From: Polynucleobacter meluiroseus
GTDB taxonomy: Bacteria; Pseudomonadota; Gammaproteobacteria; Burkholderiales; Burkholderiaceae
DNA length: 64,000 nucleotides
Direction: 5' to 3'
NCBI RefSeq assembly: GCF_900205755.1
Contig: NZ_OANS01000001.1
Span: 496,001 to 560,000 of the forward strand
Within the stretch, counting starts at the first letter, position 1. Each line of letters opens with the position of its first letter. The notes under the pieces were generated by a model. That model searched no databases. It saw only the letters and a program-made list of their open reading frames with translations, and was not told the DNA's origin. This document shows, one piece after another, positions 9,242-54,699 of this stretch. The position numbers and the translations under genes are program-made.

Positions 9242-9262
9242 ATAATCTAGGCGCTACATAGT

Positions 9263-44182: not shown

Positions 44183-44752
44183 ATGAGACTTACAACTAAA
44201 GGCCGTTTTGCAGTAACCGCAATGATTGATTTAGCCCTCCGTGAAGCACACGGTCCCGTAACGTTAGCCGGAATTAGCCAAAGACAGAAGATTTCACTCT
44301 CCTATCTTGAGCAGTTATTCGGCAAATTACGCCGTTTTAATATTGTCGACAGTACCCGCGGTCCTGGAGGCGGTTATACCCTCGCCCGCAAGTCAGATGA
44401 AATCAGCGTAGCCGACATCATCGTTGCTGTTGATGAACCACTAGACGCCACCCAATGTGGCGGTAAAGGTTCGTGCCATAGCGACGAAGAAAATCAGGGC
44501 CGTTGTATGACCCATGATCTTTGGTCAAACCTGAATTCCAAGATGGTCGAGTACCTCAGCTCCGTTTCTCTGCGCGACTTAGCGCAGCAGCAGGAAGATC
44601 GCGGCGTGATACTGCATGATCTGCGTCACAAAAAAATTAAGGTGGAAAGCAGTAAGGCCAAAAAGCCGGTGACTGCCATCACGCCTAAACCAGAGATTGC
44701 CCCAAAGCGACCTCTGATCAATTCCGTTTTTAATCTGGCTCAACAAAGTTAG
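44183..44752 (+). CDS. iscR: Fe-S cluster-sensing regulator IscR
   Basis: Rrf2-family repressor of the isc operon when loaded with a [2Fe-2S] cluster. Opens MRLTTKGRFAVTAMIDLAL with a winged helix. Cluster ligands are Cys92, Cys98, Cys108 and His111; the gap between the second and third Cys is nine residues, against five in E. coli. A basic C-terminal extension of about 40 residues (KKIKVESSKAKKPV) follows. AAGGTGA precedes the ATG. Two IscR-like sites upstream imply autoregulation. Confidence 0.95.
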   Translation: MRLTTKGRFAVTAMIDLALREAHGPVTLAGISQRQKISLSYLEQLFGKLRRFNIVDSTRGPGGGYTLARKSDEISVADIIVAVDEPLDATQCGGKGSCHSDEENQGRCMTHDLWSNLNSKMVEYLSSVSLRDLAQQQEDRGVILHDLRHKKIKVESSKAKKPVTAITPKPEIAPKRPLINSVFNLAQQS

Positions 44753-44797
44753 CCAAATACGGTTAACCTAGCAAGCTACTTTACTGATAAGCACACC

Positions 44798-46057
44798 ATG
44801 AACGCGACACAAGAAATCTCTGAGCAATCAGTACCCATGTTTAGTCCTAAACACTTCCCTGTGTATATGGATTACTCCTCCACTACGCCGATTGACCCAC
44901 GCGTTGTCGACAAGATGTTGCCTTACTTGCGTGAGCAGTTTGGCAATGCCGCCTCTCGTAGTCACGCTTATGGCTGGGCTGCTGAAGAAGCGGTGGAATG
45001 GGCGCGTTCAGAGGTTGCGCAATTGGTTCATGCTGACCCAAGAGAAATTGTATTCACGAGTGGTGCCACTGAAAGCATTAACTTAGCCATCAAAGGCGCC
45101 GCTCACTTTTACAAGGATCGTGGTAACCACATCATTACCGTAAAGACTGAGCACAAGGCGACTTTAGATACCTGCCGCGATCTGGAGCGCGAAGGTTTCG
45201 AAATCACTTACTTAGATGTCTTACCAGACGGCCTAATTGATTTTGCCCAACTTGAAGCAGCGATGAAGCCAGGCACGATTTTGGCTTCCGTGATGTACGT
45301 CAATAATGAAATCGGTGTGATTCAGGATATTCCGCGTATCGGAGAATTGTGTCGTTCACGTAATGTGATATTGCATGTAGACGCAGCGCAAGCCACCGGA
45401 AAAATTGAGATTGATTTAGAAAAGACTAAGGTCGACTTAATGAGCTTCTCCGCTCATAAGACTTATGGCCCTAAAGGTATTGGCGCCTTATTTGTGCGTC
45501 GCAAGCCCCGTATTCGTATTGAGGCTCAAATCCATGGTGGTGGTCATGAGCGCGGTATGCGCTCTGGCACTCTAGCGGTACACCAAATTGTAGGAATGGG
45601 TGAAGCTTTCCGTATTGCTCGTATCGAAATGGACGAAGAGAATGCGCGCATTCGTGCCTTGCGTGATCGCTTACTCGCAGGCTTGCAAGATCTTGAAGAA
45701 GTTTATGTCAACGGCGATATGGAAAATCGTGTTCCCCATAATCTGAATATCAGCTTCAATTATGTTGAAGGTGAATCCATGTTGATGGCCTTGAAGGACT
45801 TGGCCATCTCTTCTGGTTCAGCCTGTACTTCAGCCTCTTTGGAGCCGTCGTATGTATTGCGCGCCTTAGGCCGCAATGATGAGTTGGCGCATAGCTCGAT
45901 TCGCTTTACGCTCGGTCGCTTTACCACCGAAGAAGAAGTGGATTTCACAATCAAGTTAGTGAAAGAAAAGATCGCTAAGTTGCGGGAACTGTCCCCACTT
46001 TGGGAAATGTTCAAGGATGGCATTGATCTGAGCACAATCGAATGGGCTGCACACTAA
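44798..46057 (+). CDS. iscS: Cysteine desulfurase IscS
   Basis: PLP enzyme that takes sulfur from cysteine as persulfide for Fe-S clusters and tRNA thiolation. Motifs: [30 protein letters not shown], the PLP Lys in [12 protein letters not shown] and the mobile-loop catalytic Cys in [14 protein letters not shown]. About 18 extra residues precede the usual start ([12 protein letters not shown]); an internal ATG before FSPKHFPVY would give the common length. It lies 45 bases after iscR. Confidence 0.97.
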
Positions 46058-46121
46058 TTAAGTGAGCCAACCAAGATTAAACAGTACAACTAAACAAGAT
46101 AAAAGATAGCGAGAAAATACC

Positions 46122-46508
46122 ATGGCATATAGCGATAAAGTAATCGACCATTATGAAAATCCACGCAATGTGGGCTCATTTGAAAAGAACGATGATCAAG
46201 TTGGAACAGGCATGGTGGGTGCACCTGCATGTGGCGACGTTATGAAGCTTCAAATTCGCGTGAATGACCAAGGCGTGATCGAAGATGCTAAATTCAAGAC
46301 TTACGGTTGTGGCTCTGCAATTGCCTCTTCTTCTTTAGTTACAGAGTGGGTGAAGGGCAAAACGCTTGACCAGGCTTTAGAAATCAAGAACTCTTTAATC
46401 GCCGAAGAATTGGCCTTGCCACCAGTAAAGATTCACTGCTCTATATTGGCTGAAGATGCGATCAAAGCGGCAGTGAAAGATTACAAAGAAAAGCATCCCG
46501 CTAAGTAA
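46122..46508 (+). CDS. iscU: Fe-S cluster scaffold IscU
   Basis: Scaffold on which IscS sulfur and iron form a [2Fe-2S] cluster. The ligands Cys37 ([15 protein letters not shown]), Cys63 ([10 protein letters not shown]) and Cys106 with His105 are conserved, and the LPPVKIHCS segment (99-107) is the HscA-binding motif. The 128 residues match E. coli exactly in length. It is between iscS and iscA in standard order. Confidence 0.98.
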
Positions 46509-46539
46509 TCTCAAGGATTTTAGAAAAAGTAAATTCATC

Positions 46540-46863
46540 ATGGCAATTACCCTAACGGATAAAGCGGCAGTGCACATCAACCGCAATTTAGAAAAGCGCG
46601 GCAAGGGCTGTGGCTTACGCCTCGGTGTGCGTACCACTGGCTGCTCTGGCTTAGCCTATCAATTGGAATATGTCGATGAACCTGCTGCTGAAGACACGCT
46701 CTTCGAGTCGCATGGCATTAAGGTATTTGTAGATCCAAAAAGCTTGGCTTATATAGATGGAACAGAATTGGATTTTGTACGCGAAGGATTGAACGAGGGC
46801 TTTAAGTTTCAAAACCCGAACGTCAAAGATGAGTGTGGTTGCGGTGAATCCTTCCGCGTCTGA
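46540..46863 (+). CDS. iscA: Fe-S assembly protein IscA
   Basis: A-type carrier that binds iron or Fe-S clusters for transfer to apo-proteins. The three ligands are Cys35 (TGCSGLAY), Cys99 and Cys101 (ECGCGESF), at the same positions as in E. coli. 107 residues. The end of the gene overlaps the beginning of hscB. Confidence 0.97.
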
Positions 46864-47368
46864 CGATTACTTTCGTTTCTTCGGGATAGATCAGCAATTT
46901 CACATTGACTTGCCTGCCTTAGACCTGGCTTATCTAGCAATACAGAAAGAAGTTCATCCTGATCGCCACTCGCGTGGCAGTGAAGCCGATCAGCGCCTCG
47001 CAATGCAGATGACGACCCTTGCGAATACCGCCCTACAAACTTTGAAAAATCCTACTTTACGTGGCTTGTATCTTTGCAAGCTGCATGGAGTTGATGCTCA
47101 CCTAGAAACCAATACCGCCATGCCAGCCGCTTTTTTAATGAAGCAAATGGATTGGCGTGAAAGCCTAGATGAGCATGCCCAGAATCTGAATTCCTTAGAA
47201 GCCTTGCAGGCAGAGGTTGAGCAATCCAAAAAAGATACCCTTGCCGAAATCCGCCAAGCCATTGACTCAGCCAAAAATTATCAGCGTGCCGCCGAATTAT
47301 TGCGCGGCTTGCTTTTCATCGATAAGTTCGCTGTTGAACTTGATGATGCAATAGACACATTCAATTAG
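46829..47368 (+). CDS. hscB: Co-chaperone HscB
   Basis: J-domain protein that brings IscU to HscA and stimulates its ATPase. The HPD motif is at 43-45 ([11 protein letters not shown]), and a C-terminal three-helix domain for IscU binding follows. The first ATG lies 35 bases inside iscA; a GTG five codons later is an alternative, and no strong ribosome site decides between them. Translation is probably coupled to iscA. 179 residues. Confidence 0.95.
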
Positions 47369-47385
47369 ATTTACACTCGATCCCC

Positions 47386-49251
47386 ATGGCTTTATTACAA
47401 ATCTCCGAACCCGGTAAATCGCTCGCCCCACATCAAAGGCGCATTGCCGTTGGCATCGACTTGGGTACGACCAATTCCTTAGTGGCGATTGTGCGCGATG
47501 CGCTACCAAAAGTACTCCCAGATGCCGCAGGTCGAGAATTGCTTCCCTCCGTAGTACGCTACTTACCTAATGGCCGCACACAAGCTGGCTTTGAGGCTTT
47601 GGAAAACATGGTTTCCGATCCTAAAAATACTATCGCTTCAGTAAAGCGCTTTATGGGTCGTGGGATTAGTGATGTAGCCCATTTAGAAGATGCCCCTTAC
47701 GACTTTGTCGACGAGCCGGGGATGTTGAAGCTTCGAACTGTTGCGGGGGATAAAAGTCCCATTGAGGTTTCGGCGGAGATCTTAGCGCGCCTAAGACAAT
47801 TGGCTGAAGACTCCGTCAATGATGAGATCGTTGGCGCAGTGATTACCGTGCCAGCGTACTTCGATGATGCACAGCGTCAAGCGACTAAAGATGCGGCTAA
47901 GTTGGCAGGCATTGAAGTCCTGCGTCTGCTCAATGAACCTACTGCAGCTGCCATAGCCTACGGTTTGGATAATGCTTCCGAGGGTATCTATGCTGTCTAT
48001 GACTTGGGTGGCGGCACCTTTGATATCTCTATTCTGCGCATGAGCAGAGGGGTGTTTGAGGTTTTATCTACTGGGGGAGACTCCGCTCTTGGTGGGGATG
48101 ATTTTGATCATCGCCTGTATTGCTGGGTGCTTGAGCAAGCGAAATTACCGCCGATCTCTATTCATGATCACCGCAAATTGCTACTAGCTTGCAAGCATGC
48201 CAAAGAGCAATTGAGTCACAACCCCTTGGCACGCGTTCACGAAACACTCTCCGATGGCACCGTAGTCAATGTCGGTGTAAGCCAAGCGCAATTCTTTGAG
48301 ATTACGCAGACCCTGATTCATAAAACGGTGGTTGCAGTGAAAAAAGCCTTGCGTGATGCTGGCCTGAAGCCCGATGAAGTCAAGGGTGTGGTCATGGTGG
48401 GTGGTGCAACGCGCATGCCCCAAGTGCAGCGTGCCGTCGAGGAACTCTTTGGCACAAAGCCTTTAAATAATCTCAATCCAGATCAAGTAGTTGCCTTAGG
48501 CGCGGCAATGCAGGCTGATTTGCTCGCTGGCAATCAAAGTAAAGACGATGAGTGGCTCTTGCTGGATGTCATTCCGCTCTCGCTAGGTATTGAAACGATG
48601 GGTGGTTTGGTAGAAAAAATTATTCCTCGCAACACCCCCATTCCTGTTGCACGCGCACAGGATTTCACGACCTTTAAAGATGGTCAAACGGCTTTGGCAA
48701 TTCAGGTAGTGCAGGGCGAACGCGAGTTAGCGCAAGACTGCCGCTCATTAGGTAAATTTGAATTACGTGGCATCCCACCGATGGCCGCCGGCGCTGCTCG
48801 TATTCGGGTGACCTTTCAGGTGGATGCGGATGGCTTGCTTTCAGTCAGTGCGACCGAGCAGGTTTCTGGTGTGCATGCCTCAATTGATATCAAGCCCTCC
48901 TATGGCTTAACCGATGCGGAGATTACTCGCATGCTGCAAGATGGCTTTGCTTCCGCTCAAGTAGATCTCGTAGCTAGGTCCTTACGCGAAGAGCAGGTCA
49001 ATGCGCAGCGCTTGCTAGATGCAGTGCAAAGTGCCTTAGCTAGCGACCGCTCTTTGCTAAACCAAGAGGAGCAAGTGGTAGTGGACCAAGCAATGGCGAC
49101 CTTGCAAAAAATCCTGATTGAAGAAAGTGATAGTGATGTATTACGCAAAGCCGTAGATCACGCAGCCAAGGCAACGGACGATTTTGCACAAATGCGTATG
49201 AATGCGAGTATTCAGAAGGCTTTGGCCGGTAAGAATGTTGCAGAAATTTAA
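47386..49251 (+). CDS. hscA: Fe-S assembly chaperone HscA
   Basis: Specialised Hsp70 that releases clusters from IscU. The ATPase domain begins [15 protein letters not shown] and has [13 protein letters not shown] and [14 protein letters not shown]. The substrate domain contains the [17 protein letters not shown] linker region. At 621 residues it matches HscA rather than DnaK, and lacks the acidic DnaK tail. The isc position confirms the type. Confidence 0.97.
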
Positions 49252-49269
49252 GAAAAGAGAATTACGAAG

Positions 49270-49608
49270 ATGACCCAGATTGTTGTTCTACCTCATAGTG
49301 AATATTGCCCCGAAGGCGCGGTAGTTGAAGTTAGCCCTGGAACTTCTATTTGCGAAGCTTTATTGGAAAACAATATTCCCATTGAACATGCTTGCGATAT
49401 GGTGTGCGCTTGCACTACCTGCCATGTCATTGTGAAAGAGGGTTTTCAGAGTCTCAATGCACCCGATGAGAATGAAGAAGACTTGCTTGACCGTGCTTGG
49501 GGTTTGAATCCTCAATCTCGCTTATCTTGCCAGGCGATTGTTGCCCGTGAGAATTTGGTGATCGAGATTCCAAAATACACCGTTAATCACGCTAAAGAGA
49601 ATCATTAA
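49270..49608 (+). CDS. fdx: [2Fe-2S] ferredoxin of the isc system
   Basis: Supplies electrons to Fe-S assembly. Cluster ligands Cys42, Cys48, Cys51 and Cys87 are present, with an extra conserved Cys46 (ACDMVCACTTCHVIV), matching adrenodoxin-type E. coli Fdx numbering. 112 residues. Last gene of the isc operon here; iscX is not found downstream, where a terminator follows. An NADP reductase gene (fpr) lies some 4 kb away and could be its partner. Confidence 0.97.
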   Translation: MTQIVVLPHSEYCPEGAVVEVSPGTSICEALLENNIPIEHACDMVCACTTCHVIVKEGFQSLNAPDENEEDLLDRAWGLNPQSRLSCQAIVARENLVIEIPKYTVNHAKENH

Positions 49609-49791: not shown

Positions 49792-51147
49792 CTAAAGTGG
49801 GGTAGTCGCCCTGATCATGCCAGCCGCCACAGTATGGTTTGTAGCTTCATCAATCAAAATAAATGCACCGGTCGCTTGCGATTGAGTAAAAAGATCTGCG
49901 GCAATGGGCTTTTGTAGGACCAAATCAATTTTGCCAATCTCATTCGTCTTTAGAGGATGCGTAGAGCTGGCATGGGATAAGGTGTGCACGTCTAGAACTT
50001 GCCGAATCTCTTTTACTTTGGCGCCAACGGTATTGGTAGTGTGCTGCAAAGCATATTTTCGACTCAGGGAAAGCGGCTCGCTATCAAGCCAGCAGAGGTC
50101 CGCAGAAATCTGCTTACTCAGGGTAGGGGGCGTCGCGTCATCTGTACTAATGAAGAGGCAGCCGCGCGATACATCAATATCTTCCAGTAAACGAATGGCT
50201 ACCGCATCCCCTGTCTTAGCGGATTCCACCGCATTATTGGCAGTGGACTGCCCACGATTTGACTGATTGCCAAGATATATCTCAGCAACGGTAGCCTCAG
50301 TATTGCTAGGCAGCACACGAATCTTTTGACCTTTATGAATACTGCCGGATTCTATCTGTCCAAGATAGCCCCGGAAATCGTCTGAGGCACTGCCATCCTG
50401 ACGCGCCACATATTGAACCGGAAAACGTAAAGCTATTTTTTCAGACTGGGGGCTGGTATCTAGGCACTCCAACCACTCCAATAGTGTCGGACCTGAATAC
50501 CAGGGAGTATCTTTGCTAGCCTTAACCACATTTGCACCCAGCAAGGCAGAGATAGGAATCAGCGTGGGCTTGGGCAAGCCAATTTTTTCGCTTAATTCAG
50601 TAACGGCGGTGGTGATGGAATTGAAAATACTTTCATCAAAGTCAAATAAATCCATTTTGTTTACCGCAAACACGATGTGGCGTAGTCCGAGCAAATAAAC
50701 GATAGCGGCATGACGCTTGGTTTGGGCTAATAAGGTGGCTGGCGTGGAGTTGAAATCCACGCGACTCGCATCAACCAAGATAACGGCAACATCAGATTGA
50801 GAGGCGCCGGTGACTAAGTTGCGGGTGTATTGCTCGTGCCCTGGAGCATCGGCCACGATGAACTTGCGTTTAGGTGTTGAAAAATAGCGATACGCCACAT
50901 CAATAGTAATACCTTGTTCGCGTTCCGCTTCTAAGCCATCTGTCAAAAGAGCAAGATCGACTCCTGCATCAGCAGAGGTCACGCGGGCGTGTTTCGTTTT
51001 CGCCAGGGACTCAAGCTGATCTACCAAAATCGATTTGGTATCAAACAGTAAGCGGCCGATTAAGGTGCTCTTGCCATCATCAACGCTGCCGGCAGTAATG
51101 AAACGGACCACATTTTGGTGTGTCGTGTTCTTGCTTACTTGCGTCAT
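49792..51147 (-). CDS. cysN: Sulfate adenylyltransferase subunit 1 (CysN)
   Basis: GTPase subunit that drives ATP sulfurylase, the first step of sulfate assimilation. G motifs: GSVDDGKST near residue 20, DAPGHEQYTRNL and NKMDLFD. Elongation factor-like beta barrels follow. At 451 residues there is no fused APS kinase (CysC) domain. The start overlaps the cysD stop by one base. Last gene of the cys operon. Confidence 0.96.
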   Translation of the reverse strand: MTQVSKNTTHQNVVRFITAGSVDDGKSTLIGRLLFDTKSILVDQLESLAKTKHARVTSADAGVDLALLTDGLEAEREQGITIDVAYRYFSTPKRKFIVADAPGHEQYTRNLVTGASQSDVAVILVDASRVDFNSTPATLLAQTKRHAAIVYLLGLRHIVFAVNKMDLFDFDESIFNSITTAVTELSEKIGLPKPTLIPISALLGANVVKASKDTPWYSGPTLLEWLECLDTSPQSEKIALRFPVQYVARQDGSASDDFRGYLGQIESGSIHKGQKIRVLPSNTEATVAEIYLGNQSNRGQSTANNAVESAKTGDAVAIRLLEDIDVSRGCLFISTDDATPPTLSKQISADLCWLDSEPLSLSRKYALQHTTNTVGAKVKEIRQVLDVHTLSHASSTHPLKTNEIGKIDLVLQKPIAADLFTQSQATGAFILIDEATNHTVAAGMIRATTPL

Positions 51148-52070
51148 TAGAAGTAACCCTCTTTTTTGCGACGCTCCATAGAGGCCTCATTTGTTTGATC
51201 GTCCATTCGAGTGGCGCCGCGCTCCGTAATTTCAGTAATGGCGGTTTCTGCAATGATCTCGATGGGATTGCTTGCCGTACTCAACACTGGGCAAGTGCAG
51301 CTAATGTCGCCCACAGTGCGAAAACGCACATCTAGCATCTCGCTAATCTCACCAGCGGCCTTCGGAGTGATATTGGTGACAGGAACTAGCAGGTTATTTT
51401 TCTTAACAACCTCACGTTGGTGGGTGTAATAAATGCTGGGGAGCTCCAAGCGCTCGCGAGAAATATATTGCCAAATATCGAGTTCAGTCCAGTTGGAGAT
51501 TGGGAAGACGCGCATATTCTCTCCTTGAGCAATGCGGGCGTTATAGAGCTTCCACAGTTCAGGCCGTTGCGCCTTAGGGTCCCATTGACCAAATTCATCT
51601 CTGAAAGAAAAGATGCGCTCCTTAGCGCGCGCCTTTTCTTCATCACGCCGTGCACCACCCATTAAGGCATCAAATTCATATTCTGCGATAGCTTCTAATA
51701 AGGTGACTGCTTGCGCCGCATTGCGAGAATCTGTTTCCTTGCGCAGGCGCACAGTCCCCTTTTTAATGGAGTCTTCTACGTGCCCAACGATCAGTTTTAC
51801 CCCTGTATCGACAACCACCTGATCCCGAAATGCAATGACCTCTGGATAGTTGTGCCCAGTATCAATATGCAAAATGGGGAAGGGTAGCTTTACTGGCCGA
51901 TCGCCAAATTGAAACGCCTTACGCGCCAAGTGGAACATCACAATCGAATCCTTGCCGCCCGAGAAGAGCATTGCAGGATTAGCGCATTGAGCCACCACTT
52001 CGCGGATGATGAAAATCGACTCTGCTTCAAGCCAGTCCAAGTGATCATCCAATAATTTTGTTTCTAACAT
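51147..52070 (-). CDS. cysD: Sulfate adenylyltransferase subunit 2 (CysD)
   Basis: Catalytic subunit that makes adenylyl sulfate (APS) from ATP and sulfate. The PP-loop is in AMLFSGGKDSIVMFHL, and LHIDTGHNYPEVI and RRDEEKARAKERIFSFRD are typical. The ATG before LETKLLDDHLDWLE is chosen; a GTG two codons earlier is possible. It follows cysH by about 20 bases. Confidence 0.96.
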   Translation of the reverse strand: MLETKLLDDHLDWLEAESIFIIREVVAQCANPAMLFSGGKDSIVMFHLARKAFQFGDRPVKLPFPILHIDTGHNYPEVIAFRDQVVVDTGVKLIVGHVEDSIKKGTVRLRKETDSRNAAQAVTLLEAIAEYEFDALMGGARRDEEKARAKERIFSFRDEFGQWDPKAQRPELWKLYNARIAQGENMRVFPISNWTELDIWQYISRERLELPSIYYTHQREVVKKNNLLVPVTNITPKAAGEISEMLDVRFRTVGDISCTCPVLSTASNPIEIIAETAITEITERGATRMDDQTNEASMERRKKEGYF

Positions 52071-52091
52071 ACCCACTTTTTTTCTTATTGA

Positions 52092-52820
52092 TTATTTGTT
52101 TGCGTGCAGGCCGCACTCTTTACTATCGCTCTGTAGCCACCACCAACGACCCGCGCGAATATCTTCACCTTGCTTGACTGGACGCGTGCATGGTTCACAG
52201 CCAATACTAGGGTAGCCCTGCAAATGGAGTGGATGAATGGGTACCAATTCTTGCTGAATATAGGCCCAAACATCGCTTTCAGTCCAGTCGAACAAGGGGT
52301 TGAACTTGGCGATCCCGCGAGCATCGTCTAGTTCCTCAAAATGCAGCTCGGTGCGGGTAGTGGATTGCTCGCGTCTTTGACCTGTGAGCCATGCATCTGC
52401 ACCAAGCAGGGCGCTATTTAAGGGTTTAATCTTACGAGCACCACAACAGGCTTTCTTAGCCTCTTCGCCATCATAAAAGCCATTCATGCCGTATTGATCC
52501 ACAAAGGCTTCCACATCGCTCTCTTCTGGATAGACTTTTAAGATCTGAACGCCATAATGCGCTTCGGTCGTGTTCACCATATCCACCGTGGCTTGATGGA
52601 GTCGACCGGTGGCCAAAGTAAATAAATGAATAGCCACTTTGGCTTTGACTATGGCAGCGGTAATCACCATATCTTCGGCAGCTAAGCTGGTTGCAAAACG
52701 TACGTCACTAAAACGTGCCGTAATTGCAGTCAAGCGACCTTGAAGAATGGCAGACTTCTCAGCCAGTTGTTGCGCAGTAAGAGTGCTCTTAGGTATGGTC
52801 CAAAACTTTGGTGACATCAT
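52092..52820 (-). CDS. cysH: Assimilatory adenylyl-sulfate (APS) reductase
   Basis: Reduces APS to sulfite with thioredoxin electrons. Cys125-Cys126 (KACCGARK) and Cys208/Cys211 (GCEPCTR) are the [4Fe-4S] ligands that mark the APS-specific type, and the catalytic Cys236 is in KECGLH. PAPS-specific E. coli CysH lacks the paired cysteines. This agrees with the absence of an APS kinase here. Its start overlaps the TauE permease stop by four bases. Confidence 0.94.
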   Translation of the reverse strand: MMSPKFWTIPKSTLTAQQLAEKSAILQGRLTAITARFSDVRFATSLAAEDMVITAAIVKAKVAIHLFTLATGRLHQATVDMVNTTEAHYGVQILKVYPEESDVEAFVDQYGMNGFYDGEEAKKACCGARKIKPLNSALLGADAWLTGQRREQSTTRTELHFEELDDARGIAKFNPLFDWTESDVWAYIQQELVPIHPLHLQGYPSIGCEPCTRPVKQGEDIRAGRWWWLQSDSKECGLHANK

Positions 52821-53611
52821 GATGAAACTAGTTTAATTCCCACGAGAAAAAGCGTGCCAGCCAAGGTTGTTCTCGCAACCCGCTCGGAAACAATACTGGT
52901 TAACTTGGCGCCCAACCAAATGGCAGGTACAGAGCCAATTAATAATCCGAAGAGCAAATCAAAATGGACATTGCCAAGCCACCAGTGGCCTAAACCAGCT
53001 AGGGCAGTCAGCGGTACTGCATAAGCAATATCTGTGCCAGCAACCTCTGATGCTTTTAAGTGTGGGTAGAGCAAGAGGATGAGTGTGGCTCCAATAGCGC
53101 CAGCCCCAATCGAAGAAATGGTGACCAAAACACCAATGATCGCTCCTACCAAGATAGTGGCTATCTTGAGATGGCCACCTCTAGGTAAACGCTGAGGATG
53201 GTCTTTTACCCACCGTAGAATCTTCGCACGGAAGAGGAGTGATGCCGCTGTCAATAAAACAGAAACGCCAATGGCTAAGCTGATGACATGATTCCAGTCC
53301 TTCGAAACTGGCCCAACAAATTTCAGTACCAAAATAGAGAGCACGGCAGTAGTCAAGCTACCAATGCACAGCAGTTTCACAATATCCCAGCGCACATTGC
53401 CATGGAGGCGATGCGCTGCGGTACCGAAGCCTTTGGTAATCGCTGCAAAGGCGAGATCAGTACCGACGGCTGTAGCAGGCGCAACCCCGAAAATAATCGT
53501 TAGTAAGGGGGTCATTAATGAGCCGCCGCCAACGCCAGTCATGCCGACTAGGAGGCCTACTAGCGCGCCCGAAATAATGTATTGAGAAGAGTTTAAGAAA
53601 AATTCCAGCAT
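52817..53611 (-). CDS. TauE/SafE-family membrane permease
   Basis: Membrane protein of 264 residues with about eight hydrophobic segments. The family repeat pattern is clear: GLLVGMTGVGGGSLMTPLL in the first half and GVLVTISSIGAGAIGATL in the second. TauE/SafE proteins move sulfite, sulfonates or other anions. Place within a sulfate assimilation operon suggests sulfate uptake or sulfite export; direction is not shown. The ATG is preferred over an upstream TTG five codons earlier. It starts 17 bases after the small upstream gene. Confidence 0.9.
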   Translation of the reverse strand: MLEFFLNSSQYIISGALVGLLVGMTGVGGGSLMTPLLTIIFGVAPATAVGTDLAFAAITKGFGTAAHRLHGNVRWDIVKLLCIGSLTTAVLSILVLKFVGPVSKDWNHVISLAIGVSVLLTAASLLFRAKILRWVKDHPQRLPRGGHLKIATILVGAIIGVLVTISSIGAGAIGATLILLLYPHLKASEVAGTDIAYAVPLTALAGLGHWWLGNVHFDLLFGLLIGSVPAIWLGAKLTSIVSERVARTTLAGTLFLVGIKLVSS

Positions 53612-53628
53612 GGTTAGGTCTCGCAAAC

Positions 53629-53793
53629 TTAAGCGAATGCGGCCTCGTCTTCTGAAAACTTGATCATGTCCATCAGAAACAGAATCTTGCGTTGAAAGCT
53701 TTTGCGCTCCGCGACCCTGTCGTGGGGCAGTTGATCATGCTCACGTAGAAGCTGGGTAATGATGGGGTTGTACTGAATGCGCACCGGAGACAT
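53629..53793 (-). CDS. Conserved-looking 54-residue small protein at the head of the cys operon
   Basis: Begins MSPVRIQYNPIITQLL and ends KFSEDEAAFA; no homologue is recognised. It is charged and probably helical, with no membrane segment and no cysteine, and carries HDQLPHDR in the middle. An excellent Shine-Dalgarno, AAGGA, lies six bases before the ATG, better than those of the following genes. That ribosome site is one arm of a perfect 11-bp hairpin. The gene starts the operon that continues with the TauE permease and cysH. A small regulatory or accessory protein is possible; that is a guess. Confidence 0.75.
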   Translation of the reverse strand: MSPVRIQYNPIITQLLREHDQLPHDRVAERKSFQRKILFLMDMIKFSEDEAAFA

Positions 53794-53800
53794 TTCGATT

Positions 53801-53837
53801 CCTTAGTAAATAGGCCGTTATGGACAATTTACTAAGG
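53801..53837 (-). promoter_or_regulatory. Leader hairpin that sequesters the small gene's ribosome site
   Basis: In the minus-strand mRNA, CCTTAGTAAAT and ATTTACTAAGG pair perfectly over 11 bp around a 15-base loop. The 3' arm contains AAGG of the Shine-Dalgarno, so the folded state would block translation. Confidence 0.7.
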
Positions 53838-53840
53838 TAT

Positions 53841-53865
53841 CTATATATCCACAAGGAATATATAG
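53841..53865. promoter_or_regulatory. AT-rich dyad, candidate operator of the cys operon
   Basis: CTATATATCC and GGAATATATAG are inverted around ACAA, with one extra base in the right arm. Flanking GTATC and GATATC extend the symmetry. It could be a CysB-type regulator site; the identity is not shown by sequence. Confidence 0.4.
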
Positions 53866-53879
53866 CGATATCTACATTA

Positions 53880-53910
53880 CTTTTGGGTATATAGCTTTCA
53901 TACCCCAAAG
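53880..53910. promoter_or_regulatory. Inverted repeat downstream of fpr
   Basis: CTTTTGGGTAT and ATACCCCAAAG pair over 11 positions with one G-T mismatch and a nine-base loop. No T run follows on either strand, so it is a weak terminator at best and may be an operator or mRNA 3' structure. Confidence 0.45.
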
Positions 53911-53922
53911 CTACTTCTAGAA

Positions 53923-54699
53923 TTACTTCTCAACAAACGCCCGCTCAAAGACGTAATCGCCTAAATGCCCCAAGCTGGGCGAGACCTTGAAGCCCTTGGC
54001 ATCAAGCATGTCACAGGTTTCTTTCAGCATGGAGGGGCTGCCGCAAATCATTGCGCGATCCACTGCAGGATCTAAAGGAGGCAGGCCAATATCCTTGAAG
54101 AGCTGACCTGATTCGATAGCGGTAGTGAGGCGACCTGTTTGTTTGAAGGCTTCTCTAGTAACCGTGGGGTAATAAATTAGTTTTTCACGAATGATGTCGC
54201 CCAAGAATTCATCTTGGCTGAGATCTTCTTTGATGTACTCACTGTAAGCCAATTCGTTCACTAGACGCACACCGTGTACGAGCACAACTTTTTCAAATTT
54301 GTCGTAGGTATCGGGATCTCGAATGATGCTCATGAACGGCGCCAATCCTGTGCCAGTACTCAAGAGGTAGAGATGTTTTCCTGGATTTAAGTCATCAATG
54401 ACCAAAGTGCCAACGGACTTTTGACTTACCAAAATAGGGTCGCCCACCTGAATCTTTTGCAAGCGCGAAGTAAGTGGACCATCTTGCACCTTGATGCTGA
54501 GAAACTCTAAATGCTCTTGATAGTTAGGGCTGGCCACGCTGTAGGCTCGCACTAAAGGCTTGCCATCAACCTCTAAACCAATCATGAGAAAGTGCCCACT
54601 CCGAAAGCGCAAACCTTGATTGCGGGTGGTGGTAAAGCTAAACAGGGTGTCGTTCCAATGGTGAACGGAGAGAACGGTTTCGGTGTGATATGAGGCCAT
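53923..54699 (-). CDS. fpr: Ferredoxin-NADP+ reductase
   Basis: FAD enzyme moving electrons between NADPH and ferredoxin or flavodoxin. FAD-binding RAYSVASPNYQEHLEF and the NADP-binding STGTGLAPFMSIIRDP and ICGSPSMLKE segments are present. The C-terminus GDYVFERAFVEK ends in the short form typical of bacterial class Fpr. 258 residues. It is divergent from dsbB and upstream of the cys operon on the same strand. Confidence 0.95.
   Translation of the reverse strand: MASYHTETVLSVHHWNDTLFSFTTTRNQGLRFRSGHFLMIGLEVDGKPLVRAYSVASPNYQEHLEFLSIKVQDGPLTSRLQKIQVGDPILVSQKSVGTLVIDDLNPGKHLYLLSTGTGLAPFMSIIRDPDTYDKFEKVVLVHGVRLVNELAYSEYIKEDLSQDEFLGDIIREKLIYYPTVTREAFKQTGRLTTAIESGQLFKDIGLPPLDPAVDRAMICGSPSMLKETCDMLDAKGFKVSPSLGHLGDYVFERAFVEK

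Follow-up and report, generated by a model that had tools for sequence, protein, structure and literature searches.

Background

What does a hairpin do when one of its arms covers the ribosome site of a gene and the DNA of its other arm looks like part of a promoter? The minus strand of the Polynucleobacter DNA studied here (the window, a single stretch of 64 kb) carries, in this order, fpr, a 129-nt leader, a gene of 54 codons, tauE, cysH, cysD and cysN. A sequence-only reading of that leader had described three inverted repeats in about 110 bases, the one nearest the gene being a perfect 11-bp hairpin over the AAGGA ribosome site. All three are there, spanning about 111 nt, and the hairpin has 11 of 11 pairs and a 15-nt loop, with the AAGG of AAGGA within its 3' arm. 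The same reading took the hairpin to control translation of the gene's own message, and this is the point that we revisit here, in the window and across the genus.

Fold-back inhibition in IS10 hides the start region in read-through RNA arriving from outside, and does so with the terminal repeats of the transposon, unlike the Polynucleobacter leader. As T4 gene e is described in PMC3014915, its late promoters lie in the 5' strand of a hairpin that masks the Shine-Dalgarno sequence (SD), and lysozyme yield from the long early RNAs is lower by a factor of about 100. For sigG of B. subtilis, PMC5942855 puts forward a hairpin as a block to RNA that enters by read-through from the spoIIG operon; it cannot form in RNA from sigG's own promoter. 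We found no paper on the present small gene, by title or abstract, in the open literature searched. In this work we propose, with barely better than even confidence, that the DNA letters of its leader encode a hairpin which silences read-through RNA from fpr and in which the gene's own promoter is embedded.

Results and discussion

The locus and its small gene

The features under discussion are collected in Table 1. The top NCBIfam match of fpr is ferredoxin--NADP(+) reductase, with a score under the cut-off of that model; cysH and cysD, both encoding PAPS-reductase-domain proteins, were assigned by Pfam, and the TIGR02034 match of CysN lies above its cut-off. A scan for terminator-like sites returned none between fpr and the small gene, and none in the whole window. 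On the plus strand, an apparent IscR-IscS-IscU-HscB-HscA-ferredoxin set, named from sequence, occupies window positions 44183-49608 and is convergent with the cys operon.

Table 1. Features of the fpr-cysN locus, in window coordinates
Feature	Position	Strand	Remarks
fpr, ferredoxin--NADP reductase-like gene	53923..54699	-	putative source of read-through RNA
First dyad, close to the fpr stop	53879..53911 (about)	-	folds with a GGGTAT/ATACCC core
Middle dyad, CTATATAT-N9-ATATATAG	53841..53865 (arms 53865-53858 and 53848-53841)	-	8/8 pairs; over the -35; candidate LysR-like activator site
Putative -35 element, TTGTGG	53849..53854	-	17 nt from the -10
Putative -10 element, TAAATT	53826..53831	-	bases 1-5 lie within the 5' arm of the 11-bp dyad
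11-bp inverted repeat, CCTTAGTAAAT/ATTTACTAAGG	5' arm 53837-53827, loop 53826-53812, 3' arm 53811-53801	-	
Putative transcription start	53818..53819	-	in the hairpin loop; placed from the -10
Shine-Dalgarno sequence, AAGGA	53800..53804	-	first four bases inside the 3' arm of the 11-bp dyad
54-codon gene, unnamed small protein family	53629..53793	-	conservation, dN/dS, AlphaFold2 model
TauE/SafE permease	52817..53626	-	PF01925
cysH, cysD, cysN	49792..52820	-	PF01507 in cysH and cysD; TIGR02034 in cysN

Judged by its relatives, the 54-codon frame, which the sequence-only reading had called a gene without recognising it, is a true gene under purifying selection. It is kept in 105 of 186 genomes of the same genus (E <= 0.001), with a 54-aa translation in 100 of 108 copies and 13 invariant columns in an alignment of 89 sequences. 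The median dN/dS (Nei-Gojobori) is 0.072 over the 1340 usable of 5151 pairs from 102 of the 108 copies, the excluded pairs being saturated or too close. With a median dS of 1.7, close to saturation of the synonymous sites, this value is rough; all 1340 usable pairs fall below 0.5.

The failure to recognise the protein is likewise borne out, with no named family for any of the 89 members (best Pfam E 0.037, best NCBIfam E 0.1) and no significant sequence match in the PDB (best E 0.4). Sub-threshold matches to Pfam Complex1_LYR occur in 10 of the 89 (best E 0.042), and we treat this possible LYR resemblance as a lead only. AlphaFold2 predicts a confident two-helix hairpin (mean pLDDT 95.9), for which Foldseek returned no match at E <= 0.001; the top VIA-align match has Z 8.0 over 52 residues with an rmsd of 2.9, and many unrelated rows are nearly as good. 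The structural matches of the model are generic helical hairpins.

Matches outside the genus are few. Among 299 genomes of the family, those with E 0.02-0.08 lie in five genomes of other genera, within frames of 308-1064 aa, and among 399 genomes of the order two matches, with E 0.003 and 0.009, lie outside the genus, within frames of 213 and 350 aa; we take these weak matches to be chance. A true, though divergent, homologue (L172; 53% over 51 residues) was found in a 77-aa frame with a longer C-terminus, in a Burkholderiales MAG outside the named Polynucleobacter records. One genome (G069) holds two intact copies, L106 and L110, one behind fpr, the other ahead of tauE-cysHDN and differing at its N-terminus. 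Broken copies occur in three genomes: the second match of L105 (G103, one internal stop), L107 (G158, two stops) and L042 (G033, one TGA). The leaders of the latter two are still similar to intact ones.

A putative promoter within the hairpin

The DNA of the 5' arm is also the -10 region of a conserved, putative promoter. Of 100 scored leaders, 99 have a TTG at a distance of exactly 17 nt before the -10. The count presupposes that the -10 is regular and in its expected position, and letters 1, 2, 4 and 6 of the hexamer are invariant in it by construction, whereas the TTG spacing is not so constrained. The scored leaders come from a set of 108, obtained by removing three duplicate loci (L025, L109 and L110) and one frame-shifted L107 row, from which this count leaves out eight (L042, L073, L079, L083, L089, L105b, L107 and L108). 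They fall into 92 of type 1 and eight of type 2, which differ in upstream sequence and are alike in TTG spacing. The hexamer reads TAAATT, TACATT, TACAGT or near these; in type 1 the TT of the CTTG preceding it is invariant, while the five positions that follow the hexamer carry 0.4 to 1.1 bits. The type-2 leaders (L002, L004, L006, L020, L023, L028, L081 and L105) have a different upstream element, about CATATCNATANCANTAAAGATT, before a TTG-17-TACATT promoter.

Agreement with the consensus extends to only 6-9 of 12 positions, which fits an activator-dependent promoter as far as the letters tell, and a standard promoter scan of the window does not list this one. The start would lie in a conserved TAAC (53819-53818), about 7 nt past the -10, placing the 5' end of the message in the hairpin loop, about 25 nt ahead of the ATG. 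Since the 5' arm is the -10 region of the promoter, the native mRNA should lack the hairpin, and since the short mRNA would be without the 5' arm, its ribosome site should be open. Control of the gene's own message, as the sequence-only reading had it, is thus not what the hairpin appears to provide; its likely role is the silencing of incoming RNA.

The stem in the window and across the genus

The SD is recognisable in 23 of the 62 window genes (predicted non-overlapping ORFs of at least 100 aa), and their longest perfect SD-covering stem has 6 bp; the present one has 11. The window contains three perfect 11-bp inverted repeats whose loops fall in the range 3-25, while 20 local shuffles average 0.4 (sd 0.9); the two others are at 9262 and 63012. 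Folding of the leader RNA gives a z of -2.7, and 0 of 200 shuffles are equally stable.

In 90 distinct type-1 leaders, 90.0% of 989 stem cells are paired, against 85.3% (sd 0.5) in shuffles and 30-50% with slid partners, a comparison which favours the stem because the structure came from one of the rows. Cells altered on both sides number 35, against 10.0 in shuffles, and the stem covariation of 0.150 (0.080 in shuffles) is reached by 0 of 500, in relatives that are not independent of one another; pairs with a double change are ordinary in number (4 against 3.2, reached by 101 of 500 shuffles). Pair 5 is A-U in the window and G-C in most leaders. On a tree built from fpr DNA (89 rows), independent compensatory events are few and not significant, and in TACATT leaders pair 9 is broken with no compensation, in a comparison that omits 11 leaders (the eight of type 2, L073, L105b and L108). 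The sequence-only reading had staked itself on conservation of the frame and on compensatory changes in the stem; the frame proves conserved, and compensatory changes are present, few of them independent.

The predicted mean unpaired probability of the SD is 0.26 for RNA from the -35 and 0.67 for RNA from the inferred start; shuffling of the 5' part gives 0.54 (103 of the 108 leaders, scored without L002, L073, L083, L105b and L108); masking goes beyond 95% of shuffles (p <= 0.05) in only 33 of the 103. The 96 type-1 leaders give 0.25 in the long RNA against 0.54 shuffled, and the seven of type 2 give 0.44 against 0.47, none of them significant.

Perfect SD-covering stems of at least 5 bp are present in 87 of the 98 loci with a same-strand gene end within 160 nt, a good stem being missing in the other 11, and in 3 of the 9 remaining loci, as against 11% of shuffles; the 5-bp and 160-nt cut-offs were picked post hoc, and G-U pairs and single mismatches were uncounted. 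L106 accordingly has a stem score of 2, though a 9-bp stem with one break is present. The association between stem and distance (Fisher p 0.0004) ignores kinship, which is a confounder. Enrichment of stems where a gene ends close upstream is predicted by protection against read-through.

Proposed mechanism and comparison with known systems

We propose that the short mRNA comes from a promoter of sigma-70 type whose -35 is overlain by a LysR-like palindrome. Read-through RNA from fpr would have both arms and fold into the 11-bp hairpin, hiding the SD. With the SD hidden in the long RNA and open in the short, synthesis of the small protein would require that the gene's own promoter be active, presumably when sulfur is limiting. 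At the cysHDN loci, an untranslated first cistron might also promote Rho termination of the read-through RNA.

This anatomy would work like those of T4 gene e and sigG, an analogy that we draw from sequence and predicted folding; as in both, the 3' arm covers the SD. The likeness to T4 gene e and I-TevI, in the account of PMC3014915, is that the promoter lies within the DNA of the 5' strand of the SD-masking hairpin, so that long RNA from upstream can fold and gives little translation, the short RNA being without the 5' strand. There the promoters are late promoters of a phage and the setting is a lytic time course, whereas here we find a putative host-type promoter, a LysR-like site and a metabolic neighbourhood. 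Like sigG as presented in PMC5942855, the small gene is chromosomal and has a proposed anti-read-through hairpin that would be absent from own-promoter RNA; sigG, however, encodes a sporulation sigma factor and its stem has at least 20 pairs, while the betaproteobacterial stem of 11 pairs precedes a small-protein gene with sulfur genes for neighbours. In ugtS-ugtL of Salmonella (PMC8896665), too, two mRNAs with different starts decide the synthesis of a small protein, but the arrangement is the opposite one, the long mRNA permitting translation of ugtS and the short one being without its SD, and the sections of PMC8896665 consulted describe no masking hairpin for ugtS.

If our reading is true, the silencing of read-through that was shown in T4 and proposed for sigG has a further use, in a free-living betaproteobacterium and for a metabolic gene, and the distribution of the hairpin over one genus makes its selective cause testable. 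A second gain is an unnamed, conserved small protein that accompanies fpr and sulfate, sulfite and organosulfur genes. A fuller version would be a double lock, in which a LysR-activated promoter has a -10 that is also the 5' strand of the SD-masking hairpin and fpr RNA stays silent, some clades having remade the device from different letters, with the device fading where no close gene points in, and the helical-hairpin protein perhaps regulating sulfur assimilation; taken as a whole, this version is tentative and we would sooner doubt it than adopt it.

Alternative readings

The main rival is a palindromic DNA operator, where a dimeric repressor bound across the -10 and the mRNA start would block RNA polymerase and the overlap with the SD would be incidental. 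The dyad does span the -10 and the inferred start, a usual position for an operator, both arms are retained in most type-1 leaders with symmetric changes present, and the spacing is constant in 77 of 90 leaders. The pairing, however, outlives the letters: the SD is still paired in clades that use CCTAAA/TTTAGG (L023 and L105, where masking is not significant in folding), TCCTCT/AGAGGA (L094) or CCTTGA/TCAAGG (L035), and pair 6, which is required neither by the hexamer nor by the SD, is G-C in 61 leaders, A-U in 9, G-U in 6, U-G in 2, C-G in 1 and unpaired in 11. The loop has 14 nt in 5 leaders, 15 in 77 and 16 in 8, and a rigid operator should be less tolerant of such variation. We consider the operator unlikely, though to be taken seriously.

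The hairpin might instead act in the main message, as the sequence-only reading proposed, if the true start preceded the 5' arm and the structure were opened by some factor or signal. The stability of the leader fold and a TATATT within the middle dyad, a possible -10, speak for this; TTG-17-TANANT, on the other hand, occurs in type 1 and type 2 alike, conservation of the middle dyad does not extend to type 2, and the leader is without an Rfam match. We regard such a start as quite improbable. Slightly less probable again is that the pairing is a by-product, a conserved promoter and SD of purine/pyrimidine bias being complementary by chance and inherited together, with no regulatory role. The small number of independent compensatory events, the persistence of the gene in some leaders without a stem and the missing excess of masking in type 2 are what a by-product would give. 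Yet the stem far exceeds those of the other window genes and of shuffled upstream DNA, and an ATTTACC stretch that neither the -10 nor the SD needs is retained in most type-1 leaders. Three further candidates were rejected. A riboswitch or other Rfam family has no leader match at gathering score (only two tRNAs were found in the window), a transcription attenuator conflicts with the lack of a terminator-like site in the scan, and a leader-peptide attenuator agrees neither with that lack nor with a long conserved frame which has no cysteine in 94 of 102 full-length copies.

The upstream dyads

The sequence-only reading had also suggested that the middle dyad could be a LysR-type (CysB) operator, and its candidacy as a LysR-type site gains support, with CysB as one possible binder, since the dyad is conserved and at the position expected of a LysR activator. 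It is fully paired (8/8) in 61 of 97 type-1 leaders and has at least 6 pairs in 88 of 97, with a compensated variant in L054; it is not kept in type-2 leaders. By position and symmetry it is a conserved palindrome and a candidate LysR-like site. In a pattern search of the genome allowing up to 3 mismatches, a weak test, the dyad pattern had one match elsewhere, with 3 mismatches, at a clpX-like frame, and a longer pattern had no other match. The genome has a CysB homologue, 50% to the CysB-family protein of a relative, and those parts of the literature that were consulted gave no usable CysB consensus. The stretch upstream of the sulfite-reductase-like gene is AT-rich and has TTGTAG, and inspection by eye found no site there shared with the leader. 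A search of the same genome for Sbp returned no match, an empty answer which in this search shows nothing.

Conservation does not extend to the first dyad: at its place, 90 of 97 leaders have no perfect stem longer than 5 bp.

Genomic company across the genus

The nearest upstream gene is fpr in 95 of 107 loci. Downstream, tauE is next on the same strand in 45 of 107, cysH in 1 of 107 and a convergent gene in 55 of 107; cotranscription with sulfate assimilation genes, as the sequence-only reading had proposed, fits fewer than half of the loci. Across the 186 genomes, the small gene occurs with cysH in 58 and alone in 47, cysH alone in 20 and neither in 61 (Fisher p 2.8e-5 for co-occurrence, a statistic that ignores kinship). 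On these counts of sequence matches, the small gene is linked to sulfate reduction, yet not dependent on it.

Its neighbours elsewhere suggest that the gene is a member of the sulfur regulon. L054 is without adjacent cysHDN; its convergent neighbours are a SoxC-type sulfite dehydrogenase and, matched below the curated cut-off, a YeiH-like protein. At L105 the small gene precedes a gene for a sulfate-binding protein, followed by a CysT-W-A set (names assigned from sequence) and accompanied by a CysB-family regulator. The divergent homologue L172 directly precedes an O-acetylhomoserine/O-acetylserine sulfhydrylase gene (TIGR01326, above cut-off), and its neighbours include taurine dioxygenase-like and taurine-transporter-like genes, both just under their cut-offs.
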